From positions 17,614-63,241 of the forward strand of contig PQAL01000021.1 of assembly GCA_003105035.1 (NCBI GenBank): 45,628 nucleotides of DNA, in the 5' to 3' direction. The stretch's first letter is position 1. Every line of letters begins with the position of its first letter. Both the position numbers and the translations under genes were made by a program. The notes under the pieces are model-generated. The model searched no databases, was not told the DNA's origin, and was given only the letters and a program-made list of their open reading frames with translations. Origin of the DNA: Anaerolineales bacterium (GTDB lineage: Bacteria; Chloroflexota; Anaerolineae; Anaerolineales; UBA4823). Below are positions 12,344-42,159 of the stretch, piece by piece.

Positions 12344-13369
12344 ATGCCACAACATTTTCTTGAGCTGGATGACTTCTCGAAGGATGAGCTCCTGCACATG
12401 CTGGAGCTTATCAACTTTCTTAAGCAGGCTGATCGCAAGGGGGTGAGCCCCCGCCTGCTGCGTGGCATGAGCTTGGGAATGCTCTTCGAATCCGCCTCGC
12501 TGCGTACCAGGCTATCCTTCGAAACTGCCATGATGGAGCTGGGCGGACATGCCGTCTATCTCAAGCCTGGAGAGATCCATCTTGGGGCGCGTGAATCGAT
12601 TTACGACACCGTCCAGGTCCTTTCCCGCATGTGCGATGGCATTATGGCTCGCACTGACGCACTTGAGACCATGCAGGAGATCGCCCGTTGTTCAATGGTA
12701 CCGGTAATCAATGGCATGACCGTCTACAGCCACCCAACGCAGGGATTGTGCGATGTATTCACCATGACCGAGTGTCTCCCTCAGGGTAAACCATTGGAAG
12801 AAATGAAGGTGGCCTTCATCAGCGATGCATCACCTGTGGGTTGCATCTGCACTTCGCTCAGGCAGATCCTGCCAGTGCTGGGATCACATCTGGTGGTGGC
12901 AGCCCCTGAAGCATACCAGGTGGAAGCCCAGGAAGCTGAGAAAACCCGCATTGCCTGCCTGAGTAGCGGGGCGAGCTTTACCATGACTGAGAATCCCATA
13001 GAAGCGGTCAGAGATGCCGACTTCATCGTCACCGATGTGTGGTGGTACCACGGTTATGATGATGAAAAAGAAGCCCGTTTAAAAATCTTCATGCCGAGAT
13101 ACCAGATCAACAAAGAGCTGCTTAAGCACGCACCAGCCCACTGCAAGGTTTTACACTGCATGCCTGCCAATCGCGATTACGAGATCACCAGTGAGGTGAT
13201 GGATTCAGAATCTTCCATCATATTCGATGAAGCAGAAAACAGGTTCCACACCCAAAAGGCCTTACTGTTATGGTTCCTGTATCCCAACCGGTACGCTCCC
13301 AGCCCCGAATACCAAAAGTATATTGAAGGAGAGACTGAATCTTTCCTGCAAAAAAATATTCATTACTAA
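12344..13369 (+). CDS. Second carbamoyltransferase paralogue with altered phosphate loop
   Basis: A 341-residue paralogue of the preceding gene, starting 2 nt after its stop. It keeps the domain order and most motifs (LGMLF, LSFETAMMELGGHAVYLKPGE, HPTQ, HCMPANR, FDEAENRFHTQKALLL) but the carbamoyl-phosphate loop reads SLRTR (52-56) in place of STRTR, DYNHPTQ is VYSHPTQ, and GDAT is SDAS. These changes fall at substrate-binding positions, so it may use another amine, form mixed trimers with its neighbour, or be weakly active. Ribosome loading probably depends on coupling with the upstream gene. Family assignment is firm; the exact reaction is not. Confidence 0.7.
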   Translation: MPQHFLELDDFSKDELLHMLELINFLKQADRKGVSPRLLRGMSLGMLFESASLRTRLSFETAMMELGGHAVYLKPGEIHLGARESIYDTVQVLSRMCDGIMARTDALETMQEIARCSMVPVINGMTVYSHPTQGLCDVFTMTECLPQGKPLEEMKVAFISDASPVGCICTSLRQILPVLGSHLVVAAPEAYQVEAQEAEKTRIACLSSGASFTMTENPIEAVRDADFIVTDVWWYHGYDDEKEARLKIFMPRYQINKELLKHAPAHCKVLHCMPANRDYEITSEVMDSESSIIFDEAENRFHTQKALLLWFLYPNRYAPSPEYQKYIEGETESFLQKNIHY

Positions 13370-33797: not shown

Positions 33798-34451
33798 TTA
33801 ATCGTTCTCGCCCATTGATAAACAACAACAAAGTGTTCCTTGCCGGAGATAGATCCAGGCAGGATTTTCGATAATAACGTTACTGACACCGCGTGGGGAA
33901 CCGATTTTAAGGGTTTCGTCCACCAGGGGATATTCCAGGCCATGTGTGGTGATTCCTTGGGCATCACCGGCGAGCGGAATCAGTGATAATGTACTTCCGA
34001 CTCGATCAGCGAAAGTCGATCGGCTTTCACCATGTATGACGTGCAACGCTTGATTTCCATCCAGCAAGCTGATGGATAGGCCTGAGAATTTCGGATGAGC
34101 AGCCAACATAACATTGGCGATGGTCATATCCCAACGGGCACCCATCCCCCCAATTATGTTCACCTGGCTGATTCCTCGCTCGATAGCCAGCCACAAGGCG
34201 AGCTCCAGATCGGTTTCATCCTTGTGAGCCGGAAATTGTTTGATCTCCGTGCCTGCTGAGTGATAATAGGAAACATCATCTGGTTTGAGCGAATCGAGAT
34301 CACCGATGATGACCTGGGGTAAGATTCCCAGAGCACGGCAATGGTGTGTACCCCCATCAGCCGCAATGACCAGATCGGAAGGACGGAGCTCATTGATGAT
34401 TGGAGGCGCTTGCTCCATCTTCCCATTGGCGAATATGAATACTCGGTGCAT
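33798..34451 (-). CDS. thiN: Thiamine pyrophosphokinase
   Basis: A 217-residue enzyme transferring pyrophosphate from ATP to thiamine. VIAADGGTHHCRALGILPQVIIGDLDS is the N-terminal active-site block (here given as two parts: AADGG and GDLDS), followed by HKDETDLELAL and IIGGMGARWDM, all signature motifs. The C-terminal beta domain contains SLIPLAGDAQGITTHGLEYP and the final GVSNVI. The frame is open to 34520, but that region is the riboswitch expression platform; the ATG at 34451 follows AAGGAG by 10 nt. First gene of the thiamine operon. Confidence 0.94.
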   Translation of the reverse strand: MHRVFIFANGKMEQAPPIINELRPSDLVIAADGGTHHCRALGILPQVIIGDLDSLKPDDVSYYHSAGTEIKQFPAHKDETDLELALWLAIERGISQVNIIGGMGARWDMTIANVMLAAHPKFSGLSISLLDGNQALHVIHGESRSTFADRVGSTLSLIPLAGDAQGITTHGLEYPLVDETLKIGSPRGVSNVIIENPAWIYLRQGTLCCCLSMGEND

Positions 34452-34491
34452 AAAAGAAAAACTCCTTACCCCGTTACCGGTGGAAGGAGTT
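34452..34491 (-). terminator. Expression-platform hairpin of the TPP riboswitch
   Basis: On the minus strand AACTCCTT (34491-34484) pairs with AAGGAGTT (34467-34460) and is followed by TTTCTTTT up to the thiN ATG. The 3' arm contains the AAGGAG ribosome site, so the hairpin can both terminate transcription and hide the Shine-Dalgarno. Confidence 0.75.
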
Positions 34492-34502
34492 GGTTGTTCT
34501 TG

Positions 34503-34594
34503 CGATTCCTCCGCCGGCATTATCCGGATCAGGTTCGCGGGTCGAGATCTTGTGGATCTCCTCTCAGCCCAGGTATACCGGGCTCCCCGTGCAT
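34503..34594 (-). ncRNA. TPP riboswitch (THI element)
   Basis: Read on the minus strand, the hallmark segments appear in order: ACGGGG near 34590, GGGCTGAGA (CTGAGA at 34567-34562), and ACCTGATCCGGATAATGCC (34534-34516), then CGGAGGAAT. These are the conserved THI-box blocks that bind thiamine pyrophosphate. It lies between a consensus promoter and thiN, and represses the thiamine kinase-transporter operon when TPP is high. Confidence 0.95.
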
Positions 34595-34612
34595 GTTTAC
34601 GAATGTCAGGTC

Positions 34613-36181: not shown

Positions 36182-36571
36182 GTGACATTGACCAAGATCT
36201 TGATCGTTGATGATGACCGGGAGTTCCGGGAGTTAATCATTTTTGCTTTGCGCTTCACCGGCTTGTTTGCGTTCGGTGCGGCTAGTGGGGATGAATGCTT
36301 ATCTCTGGCCAGGCTACACATGCCAGATCTAATTTTGCTTGATTATGACTTGCATAATATAAACTCGAATCCCGTCGATGAGCTGTTGAAAGTTGATGAA
36401 AAGACAGCTTCAATTCCTGTAATAATGCTATTCGAAAAAAGCCTACAATCAGAAATTCAAGCGACCAACTTTGAGAGGGTGTCAGGCTTCATTAATAAGT
36501 CGGAATCACCCGACAACATCACCAGGCAAGTGATACGCTACCTGCTTAAGGCTAAAAAGCCAAATCCTTGA
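36182..36571 (+). CDS. Stand-alone response-regulator receiver with atypical switch residue
   Basis: A 129-residue receiver domain. The acidic pocket Asp10-Asp11-Asp12, phospho-acceptor Asp54 in LILLDYD, and a conserved Lys near residue 110 (FINKSE) are present. The switch Ser/Thr that usually follows the fourth strand is Phe here (VIMLFEKS), so phosphorylation-driven switching may be altered. It has no output domain. It starts with GTG at 36182; a TTG at 36188 is an alternative. The stop codon overlaps the -35 box of the tRNA-Asn promoter. Confidence 0.82.
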   Translation: MTLTKILIVDDDREFRELIIFALRFTGLFAFGAASGDECLSLARLHMPDLILLDYDLHNINSNPVDELLKVDEKTASIPVIMLFEKSLQSEIQATNFERVSGFINKSESPDNITRQVIRYLLKAKKPNP

Positions 36572-36596
36572 CACTGCTTGGCCTTACGCTTATAAT
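36568..36596 (+). promoter_or_regulatory. Consensus promoter of tRNA-Asn
   Basis: TTGACA (36568-36573), exact 17-bp spacer, TATAAT (36591-36596): a full-consensus sigma-70 promoter starting about 36603, 4 nt before the tRNA. Confidence 0.9.
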
Positions 36597-36606
36597 CACG
36601 ACGCTT

Positions 36607-36680
36607 TCCTCGATAGCTCAATTCGGCAGAGCGGGCGGCTGTTAACCGCTAGGTTCTAGGTTCGAGTCCTAGTCGAGGAG
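36607..36680 (+). tRNA. tRNA-Asn (anticodon GUU)
   Basis: A complete 74-nt cloverleaf. Acceptor TCCTCGA (36607-36613) pairs with TCGAGGA (36673-36679), with G discriminator; D-stem GCTC/GAGC; anticodon stem GGCGG/CCGCT with GTT at 36641-36643; T-stem CTAGG/CCTAG with loop TTCGAGT. CCA is not encoded; CTTTTTTT follows and may end transcription. Confidence 0.98.
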
Positions 36681-36708
36681 CTTTTTTTCTTTAATTTCGT
36701 TTTAACTG

Positions 36709-36881
36709 AGAGCGAGTGGTACCCATGGGGGTACTAACTTGTTAACCGCTGGGTTCTAGGTTCCCGTTTCCGGGACAGGTCGAGTCCTGCACCCGGGAAA
36801 CCACCGGGTGTTTCGCAAAAAGCGCTCAGCACCACAAAAAACCTGTGGTGTTTCGCAAAGAACGCTCAAGTCGAGGAGCTT
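36709..36881 (+). repeat. Interrupted tRNA-Asn copy A (5'-truncated, three inserts)
   Basis: This 173-bp unit is the tRNA-Asn sequence from the D-stem 3' strand to the end (tRNA 36628-36683), broken at three points. The pieces AGAGCGAGTGG, TGTTAACCGCTGGGTTC..GGTTC (36740-36763, one mismatch), GAGTCCT (36782-36788) and AGTCGAGGAGCTT (36869-36881) are tRNA; between them are an 18-bp insert (around TACCCATGGGGGTACT), an 18-bp insert (36764-36781) and an 80-bp insert (36789-36868). It lacks the 5' acceptor strand, so it is not a functional tRNA. Confidence 0.9.
36789..36868 (+). repeat. Two tandem 40-bp hairpin modules inside copy A
   Basis: The insert is exactly two 40-bp modules. Module 1 has stem CACCCGG/CCGGGTG, then TTTCGCAAAAAGCGCTCA. 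Module 2 has stem CACCACA/TGTGGTG, then TTTCGCAAAGAACGCTCA. The tails match at 16 of 18 positions, while three stem pairs differ in a compensated way. Confidence 0.9.
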
Positions 36882-36892
36882 ATTATTTAAAT

Positions 36893-37065
36893 AGAGCTTG
36901 CGGTACCCATGGGGGTACTGGCTTGTTAACCGCTAGGTTCTAGGTTCCCGTTTGCGGGACCGGTCGAGTCCTGCACCCGGGAAACCACCGGGTGTTTCGC
37001 AAAAAGCGCTCAGCACCACAAAAAACCTGTGGTGTTTCGCAAAGAACGCTCAAGTCGAGGAGCTT
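36893..37065 (+). repeat. Interrupted tRNA-Asn copy B (5'-truncated, three inserts)
   Basis: A second 173-bp unit, 184 bp downstream of copy A and nearly identical to it. Its anticodon-to-T-arm piece (36924-36947) matches the functional tRNA at all 24 positions, GAGTCCT is at 36966-36972 and AGTCGAGGAGCTT at 37053-37065. Inserts fall at the same three sites with the same lengths (18, 18 and 80 bp; the last is 36973-37052). The units are joined by an AT-rich linker of 11 bp. Confidence 0.9.
36973..37052 (+). repeat. Two tandem 40-bp hairpin modules inside copy B
   Basis: Same 80 bp as in copy A (no differences noticed by eye), again two 40-bp modules with compensated stems. Confidence 0.9.
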
Positions 37066-37075
37066 ATTATTTAAT

Positions 37076-37153
37076 AGAGCTTACGGTACCCATGGTGATA
37101 AAAACTGTTAACCACTAGCCTCCAGGTTCCCATTTTGGCAACAGGGCGACCCT
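37076..37153 (+). repeat. Decayed tRNA-Asn copy C
   Basis: Begins AGAGCTTACGGTACCCATGG like copy B, then TGTTAACC at 37106, a mutated T-arm region (CTAGCCTCCAGGTTC) and a changed hairpin; the 80-bp insert is missing. It is a diverged or truncated third copy, fading out near 37150. Confidence 0.75.
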
Positions 37154-37316
37154 TGGTTGAAGAGATTAGTCATTTTCTAATGCGGGCATGAAAGCTCAAG
37201 ACACACTCTAGGGGTAGTGGCCGAGACAAATTTTTAGTCACAATTCTCTGATTGCTCTGTTATTAAGGAAACTGGAGATATCTCCAACTCCCCGTTGTTT
37301 TATCCATGATATTAAT
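37154..37316. other. Intergenic stretch with no recognised feature
   Basis: Between the decayed tRNA copy and the fmdB terminator. Slightly AT-rich; I see no ORF, tRNA piece or strong hairpin here. Confidence 0.6.
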
Positions 37317-37363: not shown

Positions 37364-37636
37364 TCATTCCGATGATTTTTCCGTAGTTGGCTTCGCTGGC
37401 TCGTCCTTTTTTCCTGACTCGCTTTCCTTCGGTGAACGATTGAAGGAACCAGACGCTGAGCGGTGATCGGTGGAGTAAAAGCCTGAGCCTTTGAATACAA
37501 TTCCCACGGGTGTGTAAACTTTACGGAGTGCCTTCTTGTTGCATTCAGGGCAGCGGGTGAGGACCGGATCGTTATAGCTTTGAAAACGATCGAACTGGAC
37601 ACCACAATTTTCACAACGATAGCTATATACTGGCAT
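37364..37636 (-). CDS. FmdB-family zinc-ribbon protein
   Basis: A 90-residue FmdB-like protein (putative regulatory protein family). The N-terminal YSYRCENCGVQFDRFQS and CPECNKKALRKVYTPVGIVFKGSGFYSTD hold two CxxC knuckles that should bind one zinc ion; the SGFYxTD motif is a family hallmark. The C-terminal 35 residues are Ser/Lys/Glu-rich and disordered. Its role is unclear; family members were first linked to formamidase regulation but most are uncharacterised. GAGGAAAA precedes the ATG. Monocistronic, with its own terminator. Confidence 0.9.
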   Translation of the reverse strand: MPVYSYRCENCGVQFDRFQSYNDPVLTRCPECNKKALRKVYTPVGIVFKGSGFYSTDHRSASGSFNRSPKESESGKKDEPAKPTTEKSSE

Positions 37637-42033: not shown

Positions 42034-42065
42034 AATTTTCCCAATCCTTTACCATTAATAATAGG

Positions 42066-42159
42066 CGGGAGTGGATGGGGGTCGAACCCACCGCGGCCCG
42101 CAACGCGACCCGCCACCGGTTTTGAAGACCGGGGAGCCCACCGGAACTCAACCACTCCC
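42066..42159 (-). tRNA. selC: tRNA-Sec (anticodon UCA)
   Basis: A 94-nt minus-strand tRNA with an 8-bp acceptor stem GGGAGTGG/CCACTCCC, anticodon stem CCGGT/ACCGG with loop CTTCAAA (UCA at 42125-42123), a long variable arm (starts GGCGGGTCGC, GCGG/CCGC pairing), and T-arm with loop TTCGACC. The 8-bp acceptor and long variable arm identify a selenocysteine tRNA. CCA is not encoded. Confidence 0.93.

Follow-up and report, generated by a model that had tools for sequence, protein, structure and literature searches.

The window analysed here, the whole stretch of 45,628 nts from an Anaerolineales genome, contains an intact tRNA-Asn(GTT) gene followed by three tandem units that repeat the 3′ part of the tRNA and are interrupted by hairpin inserts. 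This arrangement of a tRNA-Asn and split tRNA copies with hairpin inserts, claimed in the original prediction, was confirmed by ARAGORN, Rfam, a repeat search and gapped alignment. The features of the locus are listed below in window coordinates.

36568..36596, forward strand: promoter-like site of the sigma-70 type (TTGACA-17-TATAAT, 12/12), a consensus match alone, upstream of the tRNA-Asn
36607..36681, forward strand: intact tRNA-Asn(GTT), head of the array (ARAGORN call; Rfam 64.9 bits)
36682..36708, forward strand: T-rich trailer from the tRNA to unit A, 17 of 18 nts as behind the tRNA-Asn of genome G353 (by eye)
36709..36890, forward strand: unit A (repeat search and gapped alignment)
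36720..36738, forward strand: first insert of unit A, placed at the 5′ border of the anticodon loop and made up of the hairpin TACCC-ATGG-GGGTA and a tail
36762..36779, forward strand: second insert of unit A, consisting of the hairpin CCCG-TTTC-CGGG and a tail, close to the border between T-stem and T-loop, with ends ambiguous by 1-2 bases
36789..36868, forward strand: third insert of unit A, located in the T-stem 3′ strand and composed of two hairpin subunits of 40 bp that have a REP-loop-like core
36893..37074, forward strand: unit B, 96% identical to unit A (repeat search)
36904..36922, forward strand: insert 1 of unit B (best-split analysis)
36946..36963, forward strand: insert 2 of unit B (gapped alignment)
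36973..37052, forward strand: insert 3 of unit B (gapped alignment)
37076..37163 (start and end approximate), forward strand: unit C, a decayed distal unit with inserts 1 and 2 degraded and without the 80-bp insert
37364..37636, reverse strand: FmdB-type zinc-ribbon gene (Zn_ribbon_8)

No terminator-like site was reported from the tRNA-Asn to the array. The nine window genes scanned are ordinary and encode a solute-binding protein, a thiamin pyrophosphokinase, a DUF4388 protein, a small GTPase, a response regulator, the FmdB-type zinc ribbon, a TPR protein, a LysM protein and an M50 peptidase. Elsewhere in the window, a TPP riboswitch aptamer (34488-34599, reverse strand, 64.1 bits) overlaps the start listed for the ORF of the thiamin pyrophosphokinase (33798-34520, reverse strand), hence the true start of this gene is probably located further in. 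A selenocysteine tRNA gene (42064-42159, reverse strand, Rfam 72.6 bits) adjoins the M50-type peptidase gene.

Units A and B are 182 nts each and repeat at a spacing of 184 bp according to the repeat search. In both of them, gapped alignment places the tRNA pieces in the order AGAGC....GG, insert 1, TGTTAACCGCTAGGTTCTAGGT, insert 2, TCGAGTCCT, insert 3, AGTCGAGGAGCTT, with inserts of approximately 19, 18 and 80 nts (insert 2 being 18 nts in unit B). The order of the inserts first described is upheld; the units had been given as 173 bp and the first insert as 18 bp. The copy in unit B matches the tRNA-Asn segment at 24 of 24 positions, as had been stated, and the third copy, described as decayed, has in addition no 80-bp insert. 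Unit C runs straight through the position of that insert, which there corresponds to an empty site, so the insert either postdates the split between C and A/B or was lost by C.

Taken alone, the left flank before insert 1 is weak, as 126 and 95 of 1000 shuffles score equally; with its register fixed by the right-hand piece, the same flank reaches p = 0.021 in unit A and p = 0.001 in unit B. That the boundary of insert 1 is a mere end of similarity was rejected, because the left flanks at other loci lie in the tRNA register. The units are themselves the repeats, without the unique spacers that would separate the repeats of a CRISPR array.

In ungapped register, eight differences separate unit A from unit B, which argues against a simple assembly repeat. 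It is true that the assembly of the window is a 43-contig draft and that one related case, in genome G341, ends at a contig end. However, with these eight differences and with the same anatomy recurring in several separate genomes, an assembly chimaera or a collapsed repeat has a practically negligible probability. Of the two causes initially offered for the near-identity of the units, a recent duplication fits A and B and selection found no support.

The array itself appears restricted to the window among the sequences searched. In its own assembly, BLAST returned weak tRNA similarity at most, and in 101 relatives, including the genome of the window, the only match was the tRNA-Asn itself. 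No sequence similar to the full unit was found by BLAST in 400 genomes of the order, with a best E value in other genomes never below 2.4e-5; 172 of the 400 genomes gave a match to the unit and, among the matches listed, all lay in the tRNA part. The unit and the three patterns tried were not found in phages, plasmids or viral contigs. Two hairpin-plus-T-loop patterns gave 4 and 33 stretches in viral contigs, which were discarded, the former being long variable arms of full tRNAs and the latter ordinary sequence by eye. The same sequences as inserts 2 and 3 were not found elsewhere in searches of the order genomes, the genome of the window, phages and plasmids. Recurrence was seen for the insert-1 type of hairpin.

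In the family of the window, 27 of the 28 tRNA-Asn loci read have no array and correspond to empty sites. Some relatives have a similar zinc-ribbon gene behind the tRNA-Asn with no array between the two (read by eye). Because the tRNA-Asn loci of relatives mostly lack an array, the array of the window is an addition.

A check of other tRNA loci revealed an insert-1-type hairpin (18-24 bp, CCC...GGG) within tRNA 3′ copies; with the window included, 8 genomes carry it, at 12 tRNA loci altogether. In the genome of the window, 5 of the 43 tRNAs scanned (Asn, Lys-TTT, Val-CAC, Glu-TTC and Ser-GCT) have a hairpin-bearing 3′ copy, which starts 39-79 bp downstream, with the CCC...GGG hairpin just ahead of the matching part. 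The other carriers, in seven further genomes of the order, are the tRNA-Asn of G341, G353, G222, G097 and G296, the tRNA-Lys of G326 and the tRNA-Met of G030. The six genomes named here for tRNA-Asn or tRNA-Lys belong to family f14, in which the anatomy is present at 5 of the 22 tRNA-Asn loci read. Across the order outside the window's family, 83 tRNA-Asn loci were read and the anatomy was found in the same five f14 genomes alone, relatives having been sampled unevenly, mostly at tRNA-Asn loci picked by similarity to the tRNA of the window. In G030, 1.9 kb separate the tRNA-Met from its 3′ copy, in which the hairpin precedes the T-loop by one base, and the DNA between tRNA and copy contains a 397-aa ORF without a Pfam match. 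The 15-mer TCCCCATTGAGGGGA is common to the tRNA-Asn copies of three f14 genomes and to the tRNA-Glu copy in the genome of the window.

A scan of 206 tRNAs, for which at least 100 nts downstream were required, returned 19 hairpin-bearing and 12 hairpin-less copy rows, against 0 in the shuffled control and 8 in the upstream control, the latter rows not being inspected individually. G341 was excluded by its short downstream sequence and was counted from a separate reading. Nine of the 19 hairpin rows are real neighbouring tRNAs, of which 7 adjoin a tRNA-Gly, 1 a tRNA-Ser-TGA and 1 the tRNA-Asn at L312, and a further row (L206) is probably a chance match. Among the 12 hairpin-less rows, 7 are pieces of hairpin copies missed by the strict rule (L060, L123, L204, L208, L312 twice and L368), while the remaining ones have no such hairpin (L120, L233 and L257) or a different one (L315, two rows). 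The last locus, the tRNA-Asn of G201, carries a two-unit array with a period of 52 bp, whose hairpin differs from insert 1 and occupies a similar place; in its units, CCCCGGGAGCGCAGCGCCGGGG precedes TCGACGAGGAG, the 3′ acceptor strand of the tRNA. At L257, the tRNA-Lys of G010, the near copy (tRNA 38-72, at +60) has no CCC...GGG hairpin and adjoins another inverted repeat. In the genome of the window, 20 stretches of up to 20 kb contained no further distal tRNA copies, at a setting that also missed the known short Ser copy.

The position of the insert-1 hairpin was resolved by a best-split analysis of 15 units, which gave insert sizes of 18-24 nts and a split at most one base from the border of the T-loop or anticodon loop in 13 of them. 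The split falls within one base of the T-loop 5′ border in the Asn copies of five genomes, in both Lys genes and in Met, and at the anticodon loop in the window units (5′ border) and in Glu (3′ border). In Val, it occurs after the anticodon stem and not at a loop border, and in Ser it is poorly resolved. The nine bases to the left of the hairpin match the tRNA at 7-9 of 9 positions in 10 units and at 5-6 of 9 in five. Placed in register with the right part, the left flank beats shuffles at p ≤ 0.054 in 12 of the 15 units; that of Lys-TTT is weak (p 0.145), and the value of 0.48 at L123 is misleading since hairpin and flank overlap by one base. As the left flanks are in register with the right part, the hairpin interrupts the tRNA copy.

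The stem of the hairpin covaries between loci. In 14 units, 94.3% of the cells are paired and 7 changes are double-sided, and the covariation score of 0.233 is higher than those of all 500 shuffles and all slid controls. The compensatory changes affect the outer pair (U-A/C-G/G-U), which is absent in 4 of the 14 hairpins, and the second pair (C-G/A-U), while three pairs are invariant. This set excludes units A and B of the window, whose hairpin is one base shorter and out of register, as well as unit C and the G030 copy. A covariance model built on the 14 units was searched against about 1.36 Mb (370 kb of G296, 428 kb of the genome of the window and 564 kb mostly of family relatives). All matches above 20 bits were training units, or those units in overlapping loci, hence the hairpin was not seen dispersed in this sample. 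The tRNA-Met copy of G030 was found as a weaker hit (18.7 bits), and units B and A of the window scored 16.0 and 12.2 bits. Other hits of 18-19 bits comprise L383 and window position 13173, which are not tRNA copies, and L236, which is one.

Compensatory stem changes would also be expected if the units acted as RNA, and a structured RNA grown by insertion was the second origin initially proposed. According to this explanation, they would be co-transcribed as a trailer of the tRNA, and the T-arm/acceptor copies blocked by the hairpin would serve as decoys, terminators or processing signals. The perfect promoter-like site before the tRNA-Asn, with no terminator-like hit before the array, is consistent with such a transcript, as is the T-rich tract directly behind most of these tRNAs (a mean of 8.2 T in 16 nts behind tRNAs with hairpin copies, n = 12, versus 4.5 behind 196 others, p = 8e-4); T-rich trailers, however, occur without units too. 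In folding, unit B beats all 200 shuffles (z -3.78), but 6 of the 745 sampled 183-nt segments elsewhere in the window fold equally well or better. Furthermore, the Rfam covariance-model search of the array region gave nothing above the gathering score except the tRNA itself, distal units decay and lose their hairpins, as seen in unit C, and units are absent from most tRNAs and from most relatives read. A function as structured RNA is thus quite improbable.

The 80-bp insert is built from two 40-bp subunits that have diverged from each other, both comprising a hairpin and TTTCGCAAARARCGCTCA, and this motif plus one 5′ base occurs 4 times in the window versus 0.05 expected. The subunits share their core with REP-like palindromes from MAGs of Gammaproteobacteria and from MAGs that bear the names Ornatilinea and Anaerolinea, as well as with one palindrome in the genome of the window, the last similarity being weak when taken alone (E 0.17). 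The core GTTTCGCAAARARCGCTCA was found in 36 stretches in 257 Gb, against approximately 7.5 expected at even base composition, and complementary arms of 5 or more are present in 22 of 37 matches. The pattern GGGTTTCGC-N4-9-GCTCAACCC, searched in 201 genomes of the order, occurs once, in the genome of the window only. In the window cores, the complementary arms are only 4 and 1 bases long and the GTAG tag is missing; without the tag or proper arms, the insert was rejected as a canonical REP. It is read as a separate addition to the units, with a loop resembling that of the REP palindromes in the genome of the window.

The genome of the window also contains GTAG-tagged REPs (12 matches versus 0 in the reversed control, with 11 contexts read). 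In these GTAGGTTGGG...CGAAACCCAAC elements (L161-L171), the central hairpin varies from copy to copy and is often still complementary, and five GTAGGTTGGG copies have an extra nested insert of the type ACCTG-hairpin-CGG. These REPs, which are separate from the units, are dispersed; neither dispersed copies in the same genome nor a 5′ GTAG tag with a palindromic stem was found for the units.

A small palindromic family targeting tRNA-like DNA was one of the origins initially proposed. The part concerning the target holds, as the hairpin recurs in the 3′ copies of other tRNAs and in other genomes, with the addition that the copies resemble fragments displaced from the attachment sites of integrative elements. 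In its full form, this explanation would make the hairpin a self-standing palindromic element (REP/RPE-like, involving ssDNA and a Y1/HUH transposase) that lands harmlessly in the loops of pre-existing tRNA 3′ copies, the copies being ordinary attachment scars or tandem duplications. Consistent with an element of this kind, the hairpin breaks a continuous copy (left and right matches of 9/9 and 18/18 in Met, 9/9 and 17/18 in Glu, and 9/9 and 18/18 in G341), three different hairpin inserts are present within one window copy, some tRNA copies have no hairpin, and the genome of the window encodes one Y1_Tnp domain besides its GTAG-tagged REPs. A target duplication was not seen by eye. However, a self-standing element should be dispersed, and of the 16 CCCA-NN-GGG hairpins (stems of at least 5) in the 428-kb sample of the genome of the window, a sample centred on tRNAs, 6 are inside the tRNA copies, which together make up roughly 0.5 kb, and 10 in all of the remainder, with no dispersed match to the model above 20 bits. 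In addition, the insert-1 hairpin has no GTAG or CGTC tag that could be seen. Such an origin is therefore unlikely, if still a serious contender.

Tandem arrays were found at three loci, with periods of 184 bp in the window, 75 bp in G296 and 78 bp in G326, and in all three decay is greatest in the unit most distant from the tRNA. Going outward, the right parts match the tRNA at 22/22, 22/22 and 17/22 positions in G296 and at 19/22, 18/22 and 15/21 in G326, and the three window copies are 95.8, 96.4 and 84.0% identical to the tRNA over 24-28 nts. On contig C6 of G296, the tRNA-Asn array is present twice (L372 and L375) with identical scores, approximately 56 kb apart, as if a large stretch had been duplicated or mis-assembled. 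Identical tandem periods (75, 75; 78, 78; 184) and the duplicated trailers in G296 and at Ser could also be produced by passive decay, in which slippage would duplicate the tRNA 3′ end and template switching would make the hairpins, with neither element nor function. Local template switching would not, however, give the same 15-mer hairpin at different tRNAs of different families, and similar hairpin sequences are found at Asn, Lys, Glu, Ser, Val and Met. Together with the ORF that separates the tRNA-Met from its copy, these observations make passive decay very improbable.

Hairpin-less copies are located 0.8-5.1 kb from the tRNA-Asn in G013, G028, G024 and G022, some with genes in between, and mark insertions at tRNA-Asn; similar distal copies are present in G233 and G327. 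The cargo of the larger insertions includes HicAB and a GH113 glycosidase in G024 and an M23 peptidase in G013 and G028. In the last two genomes (L092 and L093), the tRNA-Asn and a 47-nt 3′ copy are 2.2-2.3 kb apart and each is then followed by similar DNA opening with a long palindrome, which suggests tandem related elements. The tRNA copies belonging to the larger insertions at tRNA-Asn are devoid of the hairpin, as is a tRNA-Leu copy in the genome of the window, at +918 (0.9 kb behind its tRNA).

Complete tyrosine integrase genes are present in the genome of the window beside tRNA-Val-TAC and tRNA-His (Pfam Phage_integrase, 91 and 101 bits, respectively).

L174, 209-1459: tyrosine integrase gene, ending just beside tRNA-Val-TAC
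L178, 264-1457: tyrosine integrase gene, ending just beside tRNA-His

Both loci are candidate islands, and no distal copy was found within 20 kb at that of tRNA-His. With these complete genes, an enzyme able to act in trans exists in the same genome. No member of the integrase family was found in 17 ORFs scanned at or near copies in G013, G024, G028, G022, G030 and G327, nor in the nine window genes scanned, and the window units are too small for a gene. The prediction that the T-rich tRNA-Asn trailer would be an element end with a distal hairpin copy failed in all four genomes tried (0/4, with 2.4-40 kb read).

The island-like copies, the larger insertions at tRNA-Asn and the integrases of the genome of the window favour miniature integrative elements. 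The proposed reading, to which a probability of about 0.48 is given, slightly below even odds, is that the units are attachment-site copies, left behind and multiplied as very small integrative elements inserted time and again, in a site-specific manner, at the tRNA gene. Such an element would carry the 3′ part of the tRNA, and its integration would rebuild the tRNA and displace the 3′ fragment downstream. The displaced fragment of this family would hold an extra hairpin of 18-24 bp, in most cases where a stem meets the T-loop or the anticodon loop, and this hairpin would lie close to the point at which an integrase may cut. Gene-less versions of approximately 60-185 bp would settle just behind the tRNA and pile up in tandem, with the newest unit next to the tRNA and the oldest, most decayed one farthest away. 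A tyrosine integrase may act on the units in trans, and the units may be mobile at present. The hairpin could perhaps disable the element-borne copy as a tRNA, or mark the recombination site. An element of 60-185 bp would be far below known integrative elements in size, which speaks against the proposed reading, and the hairpin-less larger insertions, the scanned elements devoid of integrase and the failed trailer prediction leave room for the palindromic-element and RNA explanations.

A bolder proposal goes beyond miniature integrative elements and is doubtful. The arrays would then consist of tRNA-anchored hairpin cassettes and represent mobile DNA of a new class, in which a recombinase would insert folded hairpins at the stem/loop borders of tRNA copies, taken as its strand-cutting points. 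The resulting polar arrays would be headed by a working tRNA and would grow from one end, much like integron or CRISPR arrays. The attC sites of integrons are hairpin-shaped recombination sites and are arranged in polar arrays; the units may be likened to them in both respects, by analogy only.

Among known systems, tRNA islands leave a rebuilt tRNA and a displaced fragment, with crossovers in the anticodon loop, the T loop or at the T/acceptor junction (PMC4383910). These Islander-type islands share with the present loci an intact tRNA with a downstream 3′ fragment in the same orientation, splits in the anticodon loop or T-loop and the existence of tandem arrays (PMC4383910). Unlike them, the units described here are 60-185 bp long, mostly without cargo, with a hairpin in the fragment and no integrase in the parts scanned. 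The Islander procedure, as outlined there, rejects candidates shorter than 2 kb or without integrase (PMC4383910), hence miniature cases would go unseen in such a search. The RAYT-associated GTAG/CGTC REPs (PMC3733652) are short palindromes with complementary stem changes, as here, and the 80-bp insert shares a loop core with REP-like palindromes, whereas the insert-1 hairpin was seen only in tRNA copies and bears neither tag. Rickettsia palindromic elements (RPE) are small palindromes inserted inside genes (PMC3733652); the target here is a tRNA 3′ copy and not an ORF, and there is no CGTC end. In the main text of a work on prokaryotic tRNA gene fragments (PMC9897764), the word “hairpin” occurs 0 times. 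No description of such arrays was found in the open literature, searched with limited coverage and narrow terms. Both REPs and displaced fragments of tRNAs belong to known kinds; polar arrays of hairpin-split tRNA fragments seem to be a variant not described before.

Mobile islands often integrate at tRNA genes. With hairpins recurring at the loop borders of displaced tRNA pieces, polar arrays would preserve a natural record of successive integration events at these genes, and they would offer a direct means of asking at which points integrases cut, which sequences are moved in trans and whether DNA takes part in folded form.
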